From IMG/VR virus record IMGVR_UViG_3300021477_000011, positions 1 through 48,237 of that record: DNA of 48,237 nt; one strand, given 5' to 3'. The notes beneath the pieces were generated by a model. The model saw only the letters and a program-made list of their open reading frames with translations, was not told where the DNA came from and did not search any database. Origin of the DNA: a virus. Below are positions 296 through 31,395 of the stretch, one piece after another. The position numbers and the translations under genes were made by a program. Each line of letters begins with the position of its first letter. Position 1 is the first letter of the stretch.

Positions 296-3200
296 CTAGA
301 ACGGCGGTGCTTGGGTCTGCTCAGCAGGCGTGCGGCCCTGCCAAGCGGGTATCGACGTGGGTGGTAGACCTGGCTCGCCGTAACCCATCGAACCTAGCAC
401 GCCCTTGCGGCTTATCGTGTCAGCGAGGTTCGCTCCCTGTTGACGTGAGTATTGGTAACGCAGATTGCGTAGGTTAGAAAGATCGTTCTGCGGCACCAAC
501 ATCGAGATATGATTGCCGGTATTGTCCTCCACCGTCACTGCGTAGCGCACTTCGCCATGCTGCGCTGTTGGGCGACCGTTTGCATCAACTGCCTCTGCCG
601 TTGCAGTGAATGGCCCGCCTGTAACGAAGCTCTGGATGGCGGGTCCGACTTGCTCCGGGTCCACACCATGCGAATTGCGCACCGCGTTGTGCCATGCCGT
701 CGCCAGCGTAGCTTGGGTGTTGGCGTCGAACCCCTTCTGCTTGAGGTCGTTCATCGCCGTGACGCGGTTCGTATCCTCGGGTAGATCGGGATTGAATGCC
801 TGCGCCACCATCACGGCAGGATCATAGGTCTTACCCTCACCCGCCAAGCTGTTCATCTCTTGGTCGCTACGGGGCGCACTCCCGGCGAGATTCGATTTGA
901 ACACAGCGTTACTCTTGTCAAGCGCGTCCTTCTGTGAGTTGAGTATCGCGTCACGCTTGCTCTGATCCACGGCGCGCTGGGACGTTCGGTCATCTTGCTG
1001 CTGAAACGTCTCACGCCGCCCGCGTTCAGCCGCAGCATCACGCGCTTGGTCACGTAGGGTCTGATACTGTTTGTTGCGGATATCCCGGTTGTCTGCGATA
1101 TCCTTGTTCATCGCGTCTTGGTTCGCCTTAAGCATAGCGTTGTACTGCGCGAGCGGCCCCCTCACGTATTGCTCCATCGCCTGCTGCTGCTCGGGCTTGT
1201 TCAGCCCAGTCATATCAGGTTCAGGCGGGCGGGCGTATTCCTGCCCGCCATAGAGGATGTTACCCTGCGGGGTAAAGTAACCCCCTCGTATCCGCGCCGC
1301 ATCGCTGGCGTTCGCTTGCGCCTCTTGATTGTTAAGCCGTGAAGCGACTTGCTCGAAACTCACGTCTTGCGCGGCTGGCGCAGGAGCGTTCGCGTCTGGC
1401 GTAGCGCGTGGCGGAATAGCGGGACCGGCCTGCGTCGGCGCTCCCCCAAGGTCGGAGGGCTGATAAGGCGCGTTGCTGTCCGCCCCAGCAGGGGGAGTAG
1501 CGGGTGCCGCCCCGCCACGGCTATCAGGCGACGGTGCCGCCCCTGATGCTGGCCCTGATGCGCTTACGGGTGTAGGAGCGGGAGCGGGGGTCGCAGCGGG
1601 TGCCGCCGCAGGAGCGCTGCCGGGACCCGGCAAAGCAGGCGGCGCATTACCCACGCGGGTAACTGGCTGTAGTGGGTTACCCGCTCCCGTCGCCGCCACG
1701 CGACCCGCGCTCGCGTTCGCAGCGTCCTCTTTGGCCCGCCCAATCTCGTTGCCTTGGCGCGCTTTCTGCATCTGCGCGAATGTGCTGTCGTATTTGGCGG
1801 CTTGGCTTTCCAGCGCATTCCATTGTAGCCTGCCGTCGCGTCCCATCGACGTGGCGCGCTCAAGCACCGCCGCCGCTGAACCCTGCTTCTGCCACAACGC
1901 TTCGCCGCTTAGGTTGCTGCCGGTGACAGTGACCGTCTTACCATCCGGGTTAAGCGTCATATGGACTAGGCGTCCATCCGGCACAGCGTCAGATGCTTGG
2001 TTGACGTAATCGACTGACTTCTGCAAGTCGCCCTTATACAAAGCGTCTTGCGCCTTGGCGGATAGATTCTGTGAGGTTATCACCGAGTAGTGCAGGATGC
2101 TCGCCGCCAACCGTCCTGCCGTCTGGCTGTCGCCTTGGGAGAGAGCGAACTTATAGCCTGCCTCCAAGCCCGCGATGTTGCGGTACGCGCTGGACAACTC
2201 GTGGTTCGGGTCCGCCTGATCATTCAGTTCTTCGGCGTCCTTAGGCGTCATATAGGTGGCGCTGTTAGGACCATAGTTGACATGGTTCTGCCGGTTCGTC
2301 TGCGTCTGTGCATTTGAGGCCAGCGGGGCCGCTTGCGCGCCGCCCACCAAGCCGAGATGATCGCCAAGCCAATGCAGCCCGTCGCCAATCGCCGCAATCA
2401 GTCCCTTCGACGGGTTGCCGTTGCCGTCATGGATTTCCGCCGCAGTTGGATCGGGTGGGGGTGGGTTAACCTTCGCAGCGCCACCGCCCCCGCCGCCCGA
2501 CGCAGCCGGAGGCTGTAGAAACTCGTTGGGATCAACGTCGCTTGTCGGCTCTCCTACTGAATTATAAGTTGTAGTAGGGGCAGGCGCAGCGGCGGGCGTT
2601 GGAGAACTCGCCTCGTCGCGAGCGTCCGCAATATCCATCGTAGTCATAGCGTTCAGCGTATCGTCGCCCACCCCACCGCCATCATCGAACGCCACCACGC
2701 CGCCACGAGCCATCGGCAATGAAGGAATTGCCCCAGCGTTGAACGTGGTGGCTGAGTTTTGGGTTATCCCTTTGCCGACTGGCGCACCCGCCCCCGCGTA
2801 GGTCGCCGGGTTGTAATAGATCGGCGGGATGGCTTGCTGTCCGCCAAGACCGGGCGGCATACCAGCAGCGGAGGGGCTTACCCCGCCGCCATCGTCGTAG
2901 CGATTTACCCGCTGGGTAACTCTCGGGATGGAGCCTCCTTTGCGCGACAGGATCGTGGTGTTGTTCTGATTAGTGCCTGAGATTTGACCCGATGCGTTCT
3001 GTTGCAGGAGGTCGTCAGTTCCCACGCTGTAATCAGTGCCGCCCACATTGCTCGTGTTGGCGAACCCCGCGCCCGTCTGCGCGTCCACGTTGGGGTCATA
3101 GCTCTTGGCGGTAATGCTGTTGGGCAGGCCCGGTGCGCCTGTGGTTGTCGTCGTGGTTGGGTCGGTGATAGTCGCAGTAGCCGAAGGCGCGACAGTGTTA

Positions 3201-29747: not shown

Positions 29748-30107
29748 ATGTATTATAAGTATTATTAGTATTATTCCGAAGTTTTAAGTATGTGAAGTAT
29801 TGGCTTCGGTTAAATAGAAAACCGCCGGTAAGTCACTGGCAGGAAAAAGGTTTTATTGTATGTATTATAGTATTTAAGTATAATCAATATATAAGGGTCA
29901 TAAGCCAACTCTAACCGGATAGGGTTAGCTAACCCCATCTAGTTGTAGTCCCGTCATCCCTAACTAGTTAGAGTTATATCTATACCTTATCTAAAAATCG
30001 GCAATACTTCCGGTTGTGGGGGTTAAGTCATTGATATCATTAACGAATAACTACGCTGGACTTCCACAATACAACCTAATACTTCGACCCTACAACTTAA
30101 ACGCGTA

Positions 30108-30136
30108 TTGACAACTACATCTAGTTATGGTTAACT
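30108..30136 (+). promoter_or_regulatory. Promoter candidate upstream of 30177
   Basis: TTGACA (30108-30113), 17 bp, TTAACT (30131-30136). The repeats around CTAACTAGTTGGAG lie between it and the ATG. Confidence 0.55.
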
Positions 30137-30176
30137 GTATCCGGTTAGAGATAACTCTAACTAGTTGGAGTTAACC

Positions 30177-30437
30177 ATGCCCGGACCCAAACCAAGCGCG
30201 CAAATCATCTTTAGTCGTATCCACGTCGAATTGCTGCGCCTTCGCATCCTATGCGAGACAGAGCTACAGCATAACGTGCTGAACAATCTTGAGGCTGTTA
30301 CCCTAAAGGTAATGCCATTGTGGACTGATCAACCATTAGTTCCACCAAGCAAACGATCAACGCCACGCGAAAAGGATCAAAACTCTTTTGATGCCGAGGA
30401 ACGTGTGCGTAGGATGTACGGCAAGACGCCGACTTAA
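30177..30437 (+). CDS. Small hypothetical protein
   Basis: This 86-residue protein begins MPGPKPSAQIIFSRIHVELL and ends in a basic, polar tail (ERVRRMYGKTPT). TTGGAG lies 6 nt before the ATG, and a TTGACA promoter (30108-30136) stands just upstream with leader repeats around TAACTCTAACTAGTTGGAG. The TAA stop (30435-30437) is the first three bases of a dyad copy (30435-30449). A second, imperfect copy is inside (30298-30312). It could bind DNA next to the presumed origin, but no domain is recognised. Confidence 0.6.
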   Translation: MPGPKPSAQIIFSRIHVELLRLRILCETELQHNVLNNLEAVTLKVMPLWTDQPLVPPSKRSTPREKDQNSFDAEERVRRMYGKTPT

Positions 30438-30511: not shown

Positions 30512-30609
30512 TCAACTTTTCCTGCCGCAAAGTCGGCGGACTTCGTTTCGTCAAGCTTGGCCGGTTCACGTTCATGTTCTGCATCAGTAGGGAGTACAAG
30601 CCGCTATGA
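30484..30609 (+). CDS. Small basic hypothetical protein
   Basis: This frame of 41 codons (ATG at 30484; an in-frame GTG at 30454 would add ten residues and sit right behind the dyad copy 30435-30449) encodes a basic protein with RTRIINFSCRKVGGLRFVKL and CISREYKPL. It ends TGA overlapping the next ATG (30606), a typical coupling that supports the frame. Start choice and function are uncertain. Confidence 0.45.
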   Translation: MDVRVRTRIINFSCRKVGGLRFVKLGRFTFMFCISREYKPL

Positions 30610-30815
30610 AGTTTACGCTGCGTCGTCACTACTTGAACGCGCAAGGCTATGATGGCAGTGGATGCTATTATGGCGCTGGCGCTCCACTATATTGGTGGGC
30701 GTCCGACGACAAGATCGATGGCGAGTATCGCGATGGATATTTGCGCGCTCGCAATCGCGCCGATGCGAAAGCGCAAGTGCGCAAGCTCTATCCTGCCGCG
30801 CAGTTCTACAACTAA
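30606..30815 (+). CDS. Conserved small phage protein (GYD..G.Y.G.GAPLY type)
   Basis: This 69-residue protein follows a pattern I associate with a widespread small phage family: LNAQGYDGSGCYYGAGAPLY in the first half and YLRARNRADAKAQVRKLYPA before a final F-Y. Its job is unknown in any phage I can name. The ATG overlaps the stop of the gene before. Its stop is immediately followed by the structured element 30815-30952. Confidence 0.7.
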   Translation: MKFTLRRHYLNAQGYDGSGCYYGAGAPLYWWASDDKIDGEYRDGYLRARNRADAKAQVRKLYPAAQFYN

Positions 30816-30952
30816 GGGCCGCGCCTATAGACCGAGGCGCTATCTCTAACACGGGAGGCAATCATGCAACCCGCTAGCTAAACACTAGCATCAATGCCGT
30901 ATCGGTAAACCGTCCCGAAAGGCGCGGCCCTAACGGCATTGTTAGTAGTGTT
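30815..30952 (+). ncRNA. Candidate pseudoknot-like structured RNA
   Basis: Two long stems interleave. Stem A is AGGGCCGCGCCT (30815-30826) with AGGCGCGGCCCT (30920-30931), 12 perfect pairs. Stem B is AACACTA (30881-30887) with TAGTGTT (30946-30952) plus AATGCCGT (30893-30900) with ACGGCATT (30933-30940), separated by a 5x5 internal loop. Because the order is A5'-B5'-A3'-B3', they make a pseudoknot or two exclusive folds. The 5' arm of A can also pair locally (GCGCCT 30821-30826 with AGGCGC 30835-30840), and a small hairpin CGGTAAACCG sits at 30903-30912. The element ends 16 nt before a dyad copy and 37 nt before a lipoprotein gene, so it may be a leader control element or an independent RNA. 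Confidence 0.6.
30864..30881 (+). CDS. Possible five-codon leader peptide (MQPAS)
   Basis: ATG-CAA-CCC-GCT-AGC-TAA stands 5 nt after GGGAGG, one of the best ribosome binding sites in the window. It lies in the loop between two interleaved stems of the element 30815-30952, and its stop abuts the 5' arm of stem B. Translation here would affect folding, as in leader-peptide control. It could be chance. Confidence 0.3.
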   Translation: MQPAS

Positions 30953-30988
30953 TATTGGGAACACTCGTAACCCATAGGGTAACTATCC

Positions 30989-31321
30989 ATGCGAAAGATT
31001 GCTGTTTTGTTCGCGGCTAACGTCGCGATCCTATCCGGTTGCATCTATTTGGAGCAACCCGCTCATGCCGACACAGTTCGGCTAGGCCAGCGGAACTACG
31101 CCATTGATGATGGCGACGAGAGTACGAACATGAACGAAGCGCAAGCATTCTGCCAGCGCTTGGGTTACGCGTTCGCTTCGCTTGACTACACGCGTTATGA
31201 GCCGTCGCTTGGTCATATGCTGAGCAACCACGACACGACGCGTTTCTATTGCTTGAACAACGGCGAGACGAAGCCGCCGCTCGTCGCCAACGACTACAAC
31301 ATCACCATTCGCAATCGATAA
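30989..31321 (+). CDS. Phage-encoded lipoprotein
   Basis: This 110-residue protein has a signal peptide (MRKIAVLFAANVAILSGC) with a lipobox L-S-G-C, so Cys18 should be lipidated after cleavage. The mature part has two further cysteines (in AFCQRLGYA and RFYCLNNGE) that could form a disulphide and a beta-rich look. In other phages, early lipoproteins often block re-infection by masking receptors; that role is inferred here. The start lies 6 nt after a dyad copy (30968-30982) and behind the structured element. A strong hairpin follows (31329-31372). Confidence 0.72.
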   Translation: MRKIAVLFAANVAILSGCIYLEQPAHADTVRLGQRNYAIDDGDESTNMNEAQAFCQRLGYAFASLDYTRYEPSLGHMLSNHDTTRFYCLNNGETKPPLVANDYNITIRNR

Positions 31322-31328
31322 TCATTAT

Positions 31329-31372
31329 ACAACCCATGCGGGCGTCACCACCTAACCGCCCGCATCAGTTGT
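31329..31372 (+). terminator. Strong hairpin after lipoprotein gene
   Basis: ACAAC-CC-ATGCGGGCG (31329-31344) pairs with CGCCCGCAT-CA-GTTGT (31357-31372), giving 9 plus 5 pairs around a 2x2 internal loop. There is no clean T run after it, so it is either a weak terminator or an RNA-stabilising hairpin separating the lipoprotein gene from the next unit. Confidence 0.55.
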
Positions 31373-31395
31373 GTAAAAGATTGTTGAGAAACCTC

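Follow-up and report, generated by a model that had tools for sequence, protein, structure and literature searches.

Does the gap between two early genes of this phage genome encode a structured RNA, and if so, what might such an RNA do? The window analysed here is the whole of an IMG/VR virus record, 48,237 bases given as one strand, and encodes a terminase and a family-A DNA polymerase. The locus lies in its early, rightward part and spans the interval between the stop codon of a gene and the ribosome-binding site (RBS) that follows. A first-pass annotation described it as a new structured RNA with interleaved stems and a leader ORF, flanked by a small conserved phage gene and a lipoprotein gene. 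The downstream flank is indeed lipoprotein-like, as its ORF starts with the lipobox-like signal LSGC. For the upstream ORF of 69 residues, a sequence scan found no relative except one contig that is identical to the window in this region. The locus contains the following features.

30606-30815: upstream ORF, 69 residues
30815-30826 and 30920-30931, plus strand: arms of a perfect 12-bp inverted repeat, AGGGCCGCGCCT/AGGCGCGGCCCT; present, not conserved
30816-30840, plus strand: GGGCC and then hairpin P1 (GCGCCT 30821-30826 / AGGCGC 30835-30840, loop AUAGACCG), right after the upstream stop codon
30853-30858, plus strand: Shine-Dalgarno (SD) sequence GGGAGG of the mini-ORF; GGAGG is invariant (8/8) and always 5 nt before the ATG
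30864-30881, plus strand: mini-ORF, ATG CAA CCC GCT AGC TAA (ATGCAACCCGCTAGCTAA), encoding MQPAS; identical length in 8 distinct sequences
30873-30889, plus strand: hairpin P2, GCUAG/CUAGC, with the stop codon in its 7-nt loop CUAAACA
30879-30954, plus strand: hairpin P3, with lower stem 30879-30887/30946-30954 and upper stem 30892-30900/30933-30941
30888-30891 (GCAU) and 30942-30945 (UUAG), plus strand: 4 × 4 internal loop of P3
30969-30991, plus strand: AACCCATAGGGTAAC, a copy of a dispersed TTACCC/GGGTAA palindrome, over the RBS and ATG of the downstream ORF
30989-31321: downstream lipoprotein-like ORF, 110 residues

Relatives of the phage, all of them metagenomic contigs, were found through neighbourhood proteins (L003-L006 and L010) and through terL alignments (L013-L022 and L042-L058). 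Identical or partial contigs excepted, terL identity among them is 72-91%. The early region varies far more than terL, so that conservation there is informative. L015, L017 and L020 are unbiased because protein homology had revealed them before pattern searching began, and the contig behind L002/L005/L009/L012/L025/L042, being identical to the window here, was left out of the counts. The terL frame of L024 (2113-3611) contains one in-frame TAA and gives two matches, which may reflect a broken gene or an assembly error.

Conservation in relatives, which the first-pass annotation had named as a test of its reading, was found together with covariation for the 22-nt stem, the SD sequence and the ORF. 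The 22-nt imperfect repeat (30879-30900 and 30933-30954) is present and conserved as described, but it comprises 18 pairs rather than 15, divided between the two 9-bp stems of P3. P3 has a fixed geometry of 7-9 bp, a 4 × 4 internal loop (GCAU/KUAG), 8-9 bp and a variable loop of ~10-39 nt, and occurs at the corresponding place in most relatives whose early region is covered; internal-loop variants are GUUC/AUAG in L014 and a 3' UUCG in L021. We compared ten distinct P3 sequences (the window, L017, L015, L020=L049=L058, L024, L028, L014=L016, L019, L021 and L050=L051), scoring the pairing of their two arms after shortening the terminal loop. In this set 98% of cells are paired, against 23-52% in slid-register controls, and two-sided changes occur in 14 of the 15 pairs. 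Compensatory cells numbered 44 where shuffles predicted 12, and none of 500 shuffles did as well as the real set; some members of the set were recognized partly through their pairing, at a homologous position fixed beforehand by gene context. P3 appears in every single-sequence fold, and a strict scan (at least 13 pairs) of ~290 kb of shuffled sequence yielded no more than 8 matches, all by chance. Model R2 recovers all P3 members at E ≤ 6e-8, by construction since these are its own training sequences, and found nothing else convincing beyond them. The hairpin with all 15 pairs is present once per genome or locus, besides one divergent second copy in L021.

The interleaving of stems fared differently. 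Both repeats are present in the window, and the second arm of the 12-bp repeat falls inside the loop of the 22-nt repeat, which is the order of a pseudoknot. However, the 12-bp stem is private to the window phage. Its 3' arm does not recur in the relatives, save for 6 bp in L017, and its 5' arm recurs only within a local hairpin: GGGCCGCGC, a part of P1, is found again in L049 and L050 with the distal partner absent. The competing local pairing of the first arm that had been noted (GCGCCT/AGGCGC) does exist and is this P1 hairpin. Not being conserved, the 12-bp stem was rejected as part of the element, and any role of the pseudoknot may be confined to the window phage. None of 200 shuffles folded as well as the region itself (z -3.7).

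P1 is a GC hairpin of 5-6 bp whose loop is AUAGANCGA or a near form, and it is present in the window, L049, L050, L024 and L014. The corresponding hairpins, at the same place and with similar loops, are GCGCG-AUAGACCGA-CGCGC in L049, GCGCG-AUAAACCUA-CGCGC in L050 and GCGGG-AUAGAACGA-CCCGC in L024 and L014, while L015 has a P1 variant carrying an inserted GC hairpin. Four GC-rich hairpins of the form CCCCCGG-n8/9-CCGGGGG occur in L015 (827, 1302, 1388 and 6237), two of them in or near the element, and look like a small mobile hairpin. The upstream reading frame of L050 and L014 terminates within the P1 loop. In both, P3 lies directly 3' of P1, indicating that the mini-ORF and P2 form an optional cassette between the two. 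Four phages have P3 without the mini-ORF, which suggests that P3 has a role of its own. We picture the element as having up to three parts: P1, the optional cassette of a strong SD sequence, five-codon ORF and P2, and P3 before the next RBS.

The five-codon ORF that had been noted behind GGGAGG is conserved in the relatives. Eight distinct sequences (the window, L017, L015, L020, L024, L028, L049=L058 and L026) share the same geometry, consisting of GGAGG, exactly 5 nt, ATG, four codons and TAA, with one copy per genome. A pattern scan that permitted SD-ATG spacings of 4-8 nt yielded L024, L026 and L028, and the spacing is 5 nt in all three. Relaxing the pattern to 17 fixed bases retrieved the same set of 7 viral contigs with no additions. 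L049/L058, missed by the patterns (CTC codon), were recovered through terL and provide an independent confirmation of the mini-ORF. The third codon is CCC (CTC in L049) and the fourth GCN; the fifth has C as its last base, and the stop is followed by an A. The encoded peptides (MQPAS, MSPAS, MNPAD, MQPAH, MQPAD, MQPAG and MHLAS) contain no conserved regulatory codons or stalling peptide; their variability argues against a sequence-specific stalling peptide, and the peptide itself is probably not the signal. Two other candidates were rejected: pairing of CCCG that would hide the mini-ORF SD sequence is not conserved, and for recoding past the stop, downstream reading frames are not conserved by eye.

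The last two mini-ORF codons form the 5' arm of P2, a 5-bp stem closed by a 7-nt loop, CUAAANN, that always holds the stop codon. The arms differ (GCUAG/CUAGC, GCCGA/UCGGC, GCGCA/UGCGC, GCUGG/CCAGC and GCCAG/CUGGC), yet 97.5% of cells are paired, with two-sided changes in 3 of 5 pairs and 2 pairs invariant. L020 and L049 have identical P3 sequences and different P2 arms, which pair in both. At -4 to -6 kcal/mol P2 is weak, so that it would matter during transcription or translation and not at equilibrium. The idea that P2 mimics an anticodon arm (5-bp stem, 7-nt loop) was dropped, as it places AAA at the anticodon and has no known target.

Rfam 15 covariance models, at the gathering score, gave no match in the window, in keeping with the earlier statement that no known RNA family was recognizable, and none in the element region of five relatives, a single tRNA match in L017 lying elsewhere. 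Searches of INPHARED and PLSDB found no homologues of the element, and 84,980 bacterial and archaeal genomes (GTDB) contained no true match. Seven pattern matches in those genomes, with 2-4 of the 5 P2 pairs only, were attributed to chance, as was L029, which lies inside a coding gene. The element is absent from Rhizobium phage RHph_TM3_14A (terL 45%), from part of Luteibacter phage Pluto and from the distant terL relatives L053-L056, where the only match was a weak one in L053. That match (2900-2947, minus strand; mini-ORF model, E 0.55) has an SD sequence, a GC hairpin and a longer ORF, and is possibly a distant form.

The remaining mini-ORF member, L026, lies within an 82-kb record (G001) that has its own terminase and matches neither the terL nor the ATPase profiles of the group. 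Here the mini-ORF and a perfect P2 are intergenic and co-directional with the next gene, and an intrinsic terminator follows; the P3 counterpart is weak on folding and was missed by R2. The presence of the mini-ORF and P2 in this unrelated phage indicates that the cassette crossed between phage lineages or is older than they are. One arm of the G001 terminator, AACCCGC (L026 1246-1263, minus strand), equals the mini-ORF segment AACCCGC, and the 3' arm could pair with its own arm or with this segment, possibly by chance. Its terminator makes the G001 element a self-contained unit of ~130 nt, as might suit a trans-acting small RNA, or an RNA that delivers the pentapeptide or ties up ribosomes in the manner of minigene toxicity and lambda bar RNA. 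We hold such a function to be quite improbable, given that elsewhere the next RBS follows directly with no terminator, that the peptide is variable and that scans for a promoter of the element's own saw none. The lambda bar minigenes are very short phage ORFs behind an SD sequence, two codons long and not in a conserved fold, whereas the ORF here has five codons and lies in a conserved fold.

How the cassette and P3 could act together is suggested by their spacing, the distance from the mini-ORF stop to P3 being 0, 1, 26 or 42 nt. In 4 of the 8 mini-ORF elements (the window, L017, L024 and L026) the stop touches or starts the lower P3 stem, at 0-1 nt in the first three, and in the window P3 begins with the three nucleotides of the stop codon. 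Termination at this site and formation of P3 should thus be mutually exclusive in these phages. In constrained folding with a ribosome at the stop, the lower P3 stem was lost in all four and P3 stayed intact in L015, L020 and L049. P2 and P3 are 26-42 nt apart in L015, L020, L028 and L049 and are able to coexist. In the overlapping cases P3 wins at equilibrium (p(P2) 0.00-0.11), and any switch would therefore have to be co-transcriptional.

We tentatively favour an element that acts in cis on the early mRNA: translating the mini-ORF would control the formation of P2 and P3, and hence expression of the next cistron. Ribosomes would load on the mini-ORF, open P2 and finish at the UAA. In the window phage, a ribosome at this stop would block the lower P3 stem and its departure would let P3 close. 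P3 would fold the intervening 76 nt away and so bring the mini-ORF stop beside the following SD sequence. Mini-ORF translation, by setting the state of P3, could then tune the downstream early mRNA regardless of which gene it carries, affecting either its stability or its translation (through coupling, reinitiation or ribosome standby). A more far-reaching version, which we regard as speculative and rather doubtful, posits a new class of phage mRNA module that is mobile and independent of the adjoining gene. A ribosome that terminates at the stop held in the 7-nt loop (CUAAANN) would gate a conserved internal-loop hairpin, and the module would serve as a generic ribosome-sensing connector of cistrons across unrelated phages.

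The earlier suggestion of a riboregulator or leader-peptide attenuator is plausible but unproven. The window has no terminator after the element, G001 does have one, and the peptide varies. Leader-peptide attenuators and uORF leaders (cat, erm, trp) resemble some copies of the element in placing an SD sequence and a very short ORF over competing hairpins before a gene. The ORF overlaps alternative hairpins in the window, L017, L024 and L026 and is apart from P3 in L015, L020, L028 and L049. Unlike those leaders, the element encodes a peptide that varies and lacks a run of regulatory codons; in most phages it is not followed by a terminator, and P2 and P3 compete in only half.

The orientation of the element is constant, and it directly precedes a gene in every case. 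In most cases the next RBS comes immediately after P3, which is followed by AACYC...GRGTAA and the ATG. The downstream gene differs between phages, so that the neighbouring genes change and the element stays; in L017, for example, an MNHIQ-type gene precedes the element, and in L021 the gene of this type comes after P3. Downstream gene types are common to L017/L019, L024/L028 and L014/L050, and the others differ. Such changing of downstream genes makes control of one particular gene unlikely.

The record also contains other DNA repeats. The palindrome [TA]ACCCN2-4GGGT[TA] has 46 sites across the whole record (for example at 30436, 30969, 33433 and 39570), compared with 0.65 in shuffles, and several sites cover an RBS before a start codon. 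L020, L024 and L028 have ACTC...GAGT at the same kind of place as the ACCC/GGGT palindrome of the window. A cluster of inverted and direct repeats of the CTCTAACTAGTTAGAG type (29900-30185), with TTGACA at 30108, ends at the ATG of the first early gene (30177), where relatives have different, operator-like palindromes. The element might act at the DNA level, as an operator or as a recombination or origin hairpin with an incidental mini-ORF. Conservation of an inverted repeat alone would look alike in DNA, and DNA palindromes do occur in the same region, at the first early gene. We nonetheless judge this the least likely explanation and a very improbable one: the internal and hairpin loops are conserved yet not palindromic, orientation is fixed to transcription, the geometry of SD sequence, ATG and stop is fixed, and G-U pairs occur in P3.

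A second hairpin (31325-31378; ACAAC-CC-AUGCGGGCG / CGCCCGCAU-CA-GUUGUGU, with a 2 × 2 internal loop) lies immediately 3' of the stop codon that ends ORF 30989-31321; just beyond the hairpin is a promoter-like TTGACA site with GCCAAnTTGGC. This hairpin is conserved in L014/L016, L015, L017 and L019. The closest analogue of P3 itself is R1.1 of phage T7, an RNA of 60 nt that separates early genes 1.0 and 1.1 and has an internal loop of 4/5 nt (PMC6121014). Both are a single ~20-bp hairpin with an internal loop of ~4 nt, positioned in an early intercistronic gap and independent of the downstream gene, a geometry of T7-type RNase III sites that P3 shows in 10 sequences. P3 differs in that its internal-loop sequence is conserved across divergent phages and that it is joined by a mini-ORF cassette with the stop in the loop.

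The main rival explanation, which we consider possible if rather unlikely, follows the T7 example: P3 and the second hairpin (31325-31376) would be RNase III sites for early-mRNA processing, at which the host enzyme cuts the internal loop, the leftover 3' hairpin protects the upstream message and the SD sequence with the mini-ORF protects or marks the new 5' end. The 20-22 bp of P3 with a central internal loop in an early intercistronic gap, the conserved ~20-bp internal-loop hairpin just downstream and the independence from the identity of the next gene are consistent with such processing. By contrast, conservation of GCAU/KUAG exceeds what RNase III should need, P3 occurs once per genome, and a five-codon ORF with an invariant stop-in-loop is left unexplained. 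Moreover, RNase III from Sinorhizobium favours dsRNA longer than the E. coli enzyme does (PMC6121014), a preference that the host enzyme here may or may not share.

The conserved loops amid variable stems (AUAGANCGA, CUAAANN and GCAU/KUAG) could also be read as contact points. The element would then be a nut- or put-like binding site in the early transcript for a phage or host RNA-binding or antitermination factor, which would recognize the internal loop of P3 together with the loops of P1 and P2, and the mini-ORF would keep this site either free or occupied. The intrinsic terminator after the G001 element fits this idea, as does the lack of dependence on the downstream gene. A binding site appears unlikely, since the window has no intrinsic terminator after the element, G001 being the only case with one, the element is several genes into the operon and no candidate factor was identified.

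In layout, the closest analogues of the element are the SAS/ESAS sequences of cluster K mycobacteriophages and cluster EF Microbacterium phages. These are imperfect inverted repeats whose arms are separated by a spacer of variable length; they lie immediately 5' of a conserved start-codon motif and precede varied, mostly small genes (PMC3203893, PMC7302621). ESAS are 17-bp repeats of conserved sequence in many copies per genome, for which the authors see little support as RNA hairpins (PMC3203893). The element shares with them an inverted repeat adjacent to a start motif and lacks the many consensus copies per genome: P3 is single-copy, covaries strongly and is accompanied by a mini-ORF module.

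Neither T7 R1.1 nor SAS/ESAS nor the attenuators are a class to which the element belongs. The original reading as a new structured RNA with a leader ORF stands on conservation, covariation, fixed spacing and length and the lack of an Rfam match, and only its interleaved stems are unsupported. Structure, conservation, orientation and ORF geometry are well supported by comparison of the contigs, and the element appears to be a phage RNA regulator of a kind not described before, with the function proposed above as a candidate. To our knowledge, few structured RNAs of uncultured phages combine covariation support with a conserved micro-ORF. Two covariance models and an exact geometry make the element directly testable. 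Should mini-ORF translation gate the hairpin, the element would be a compact means of control able to work in front of any gene, as well as a source of portable translation-coupling parts.
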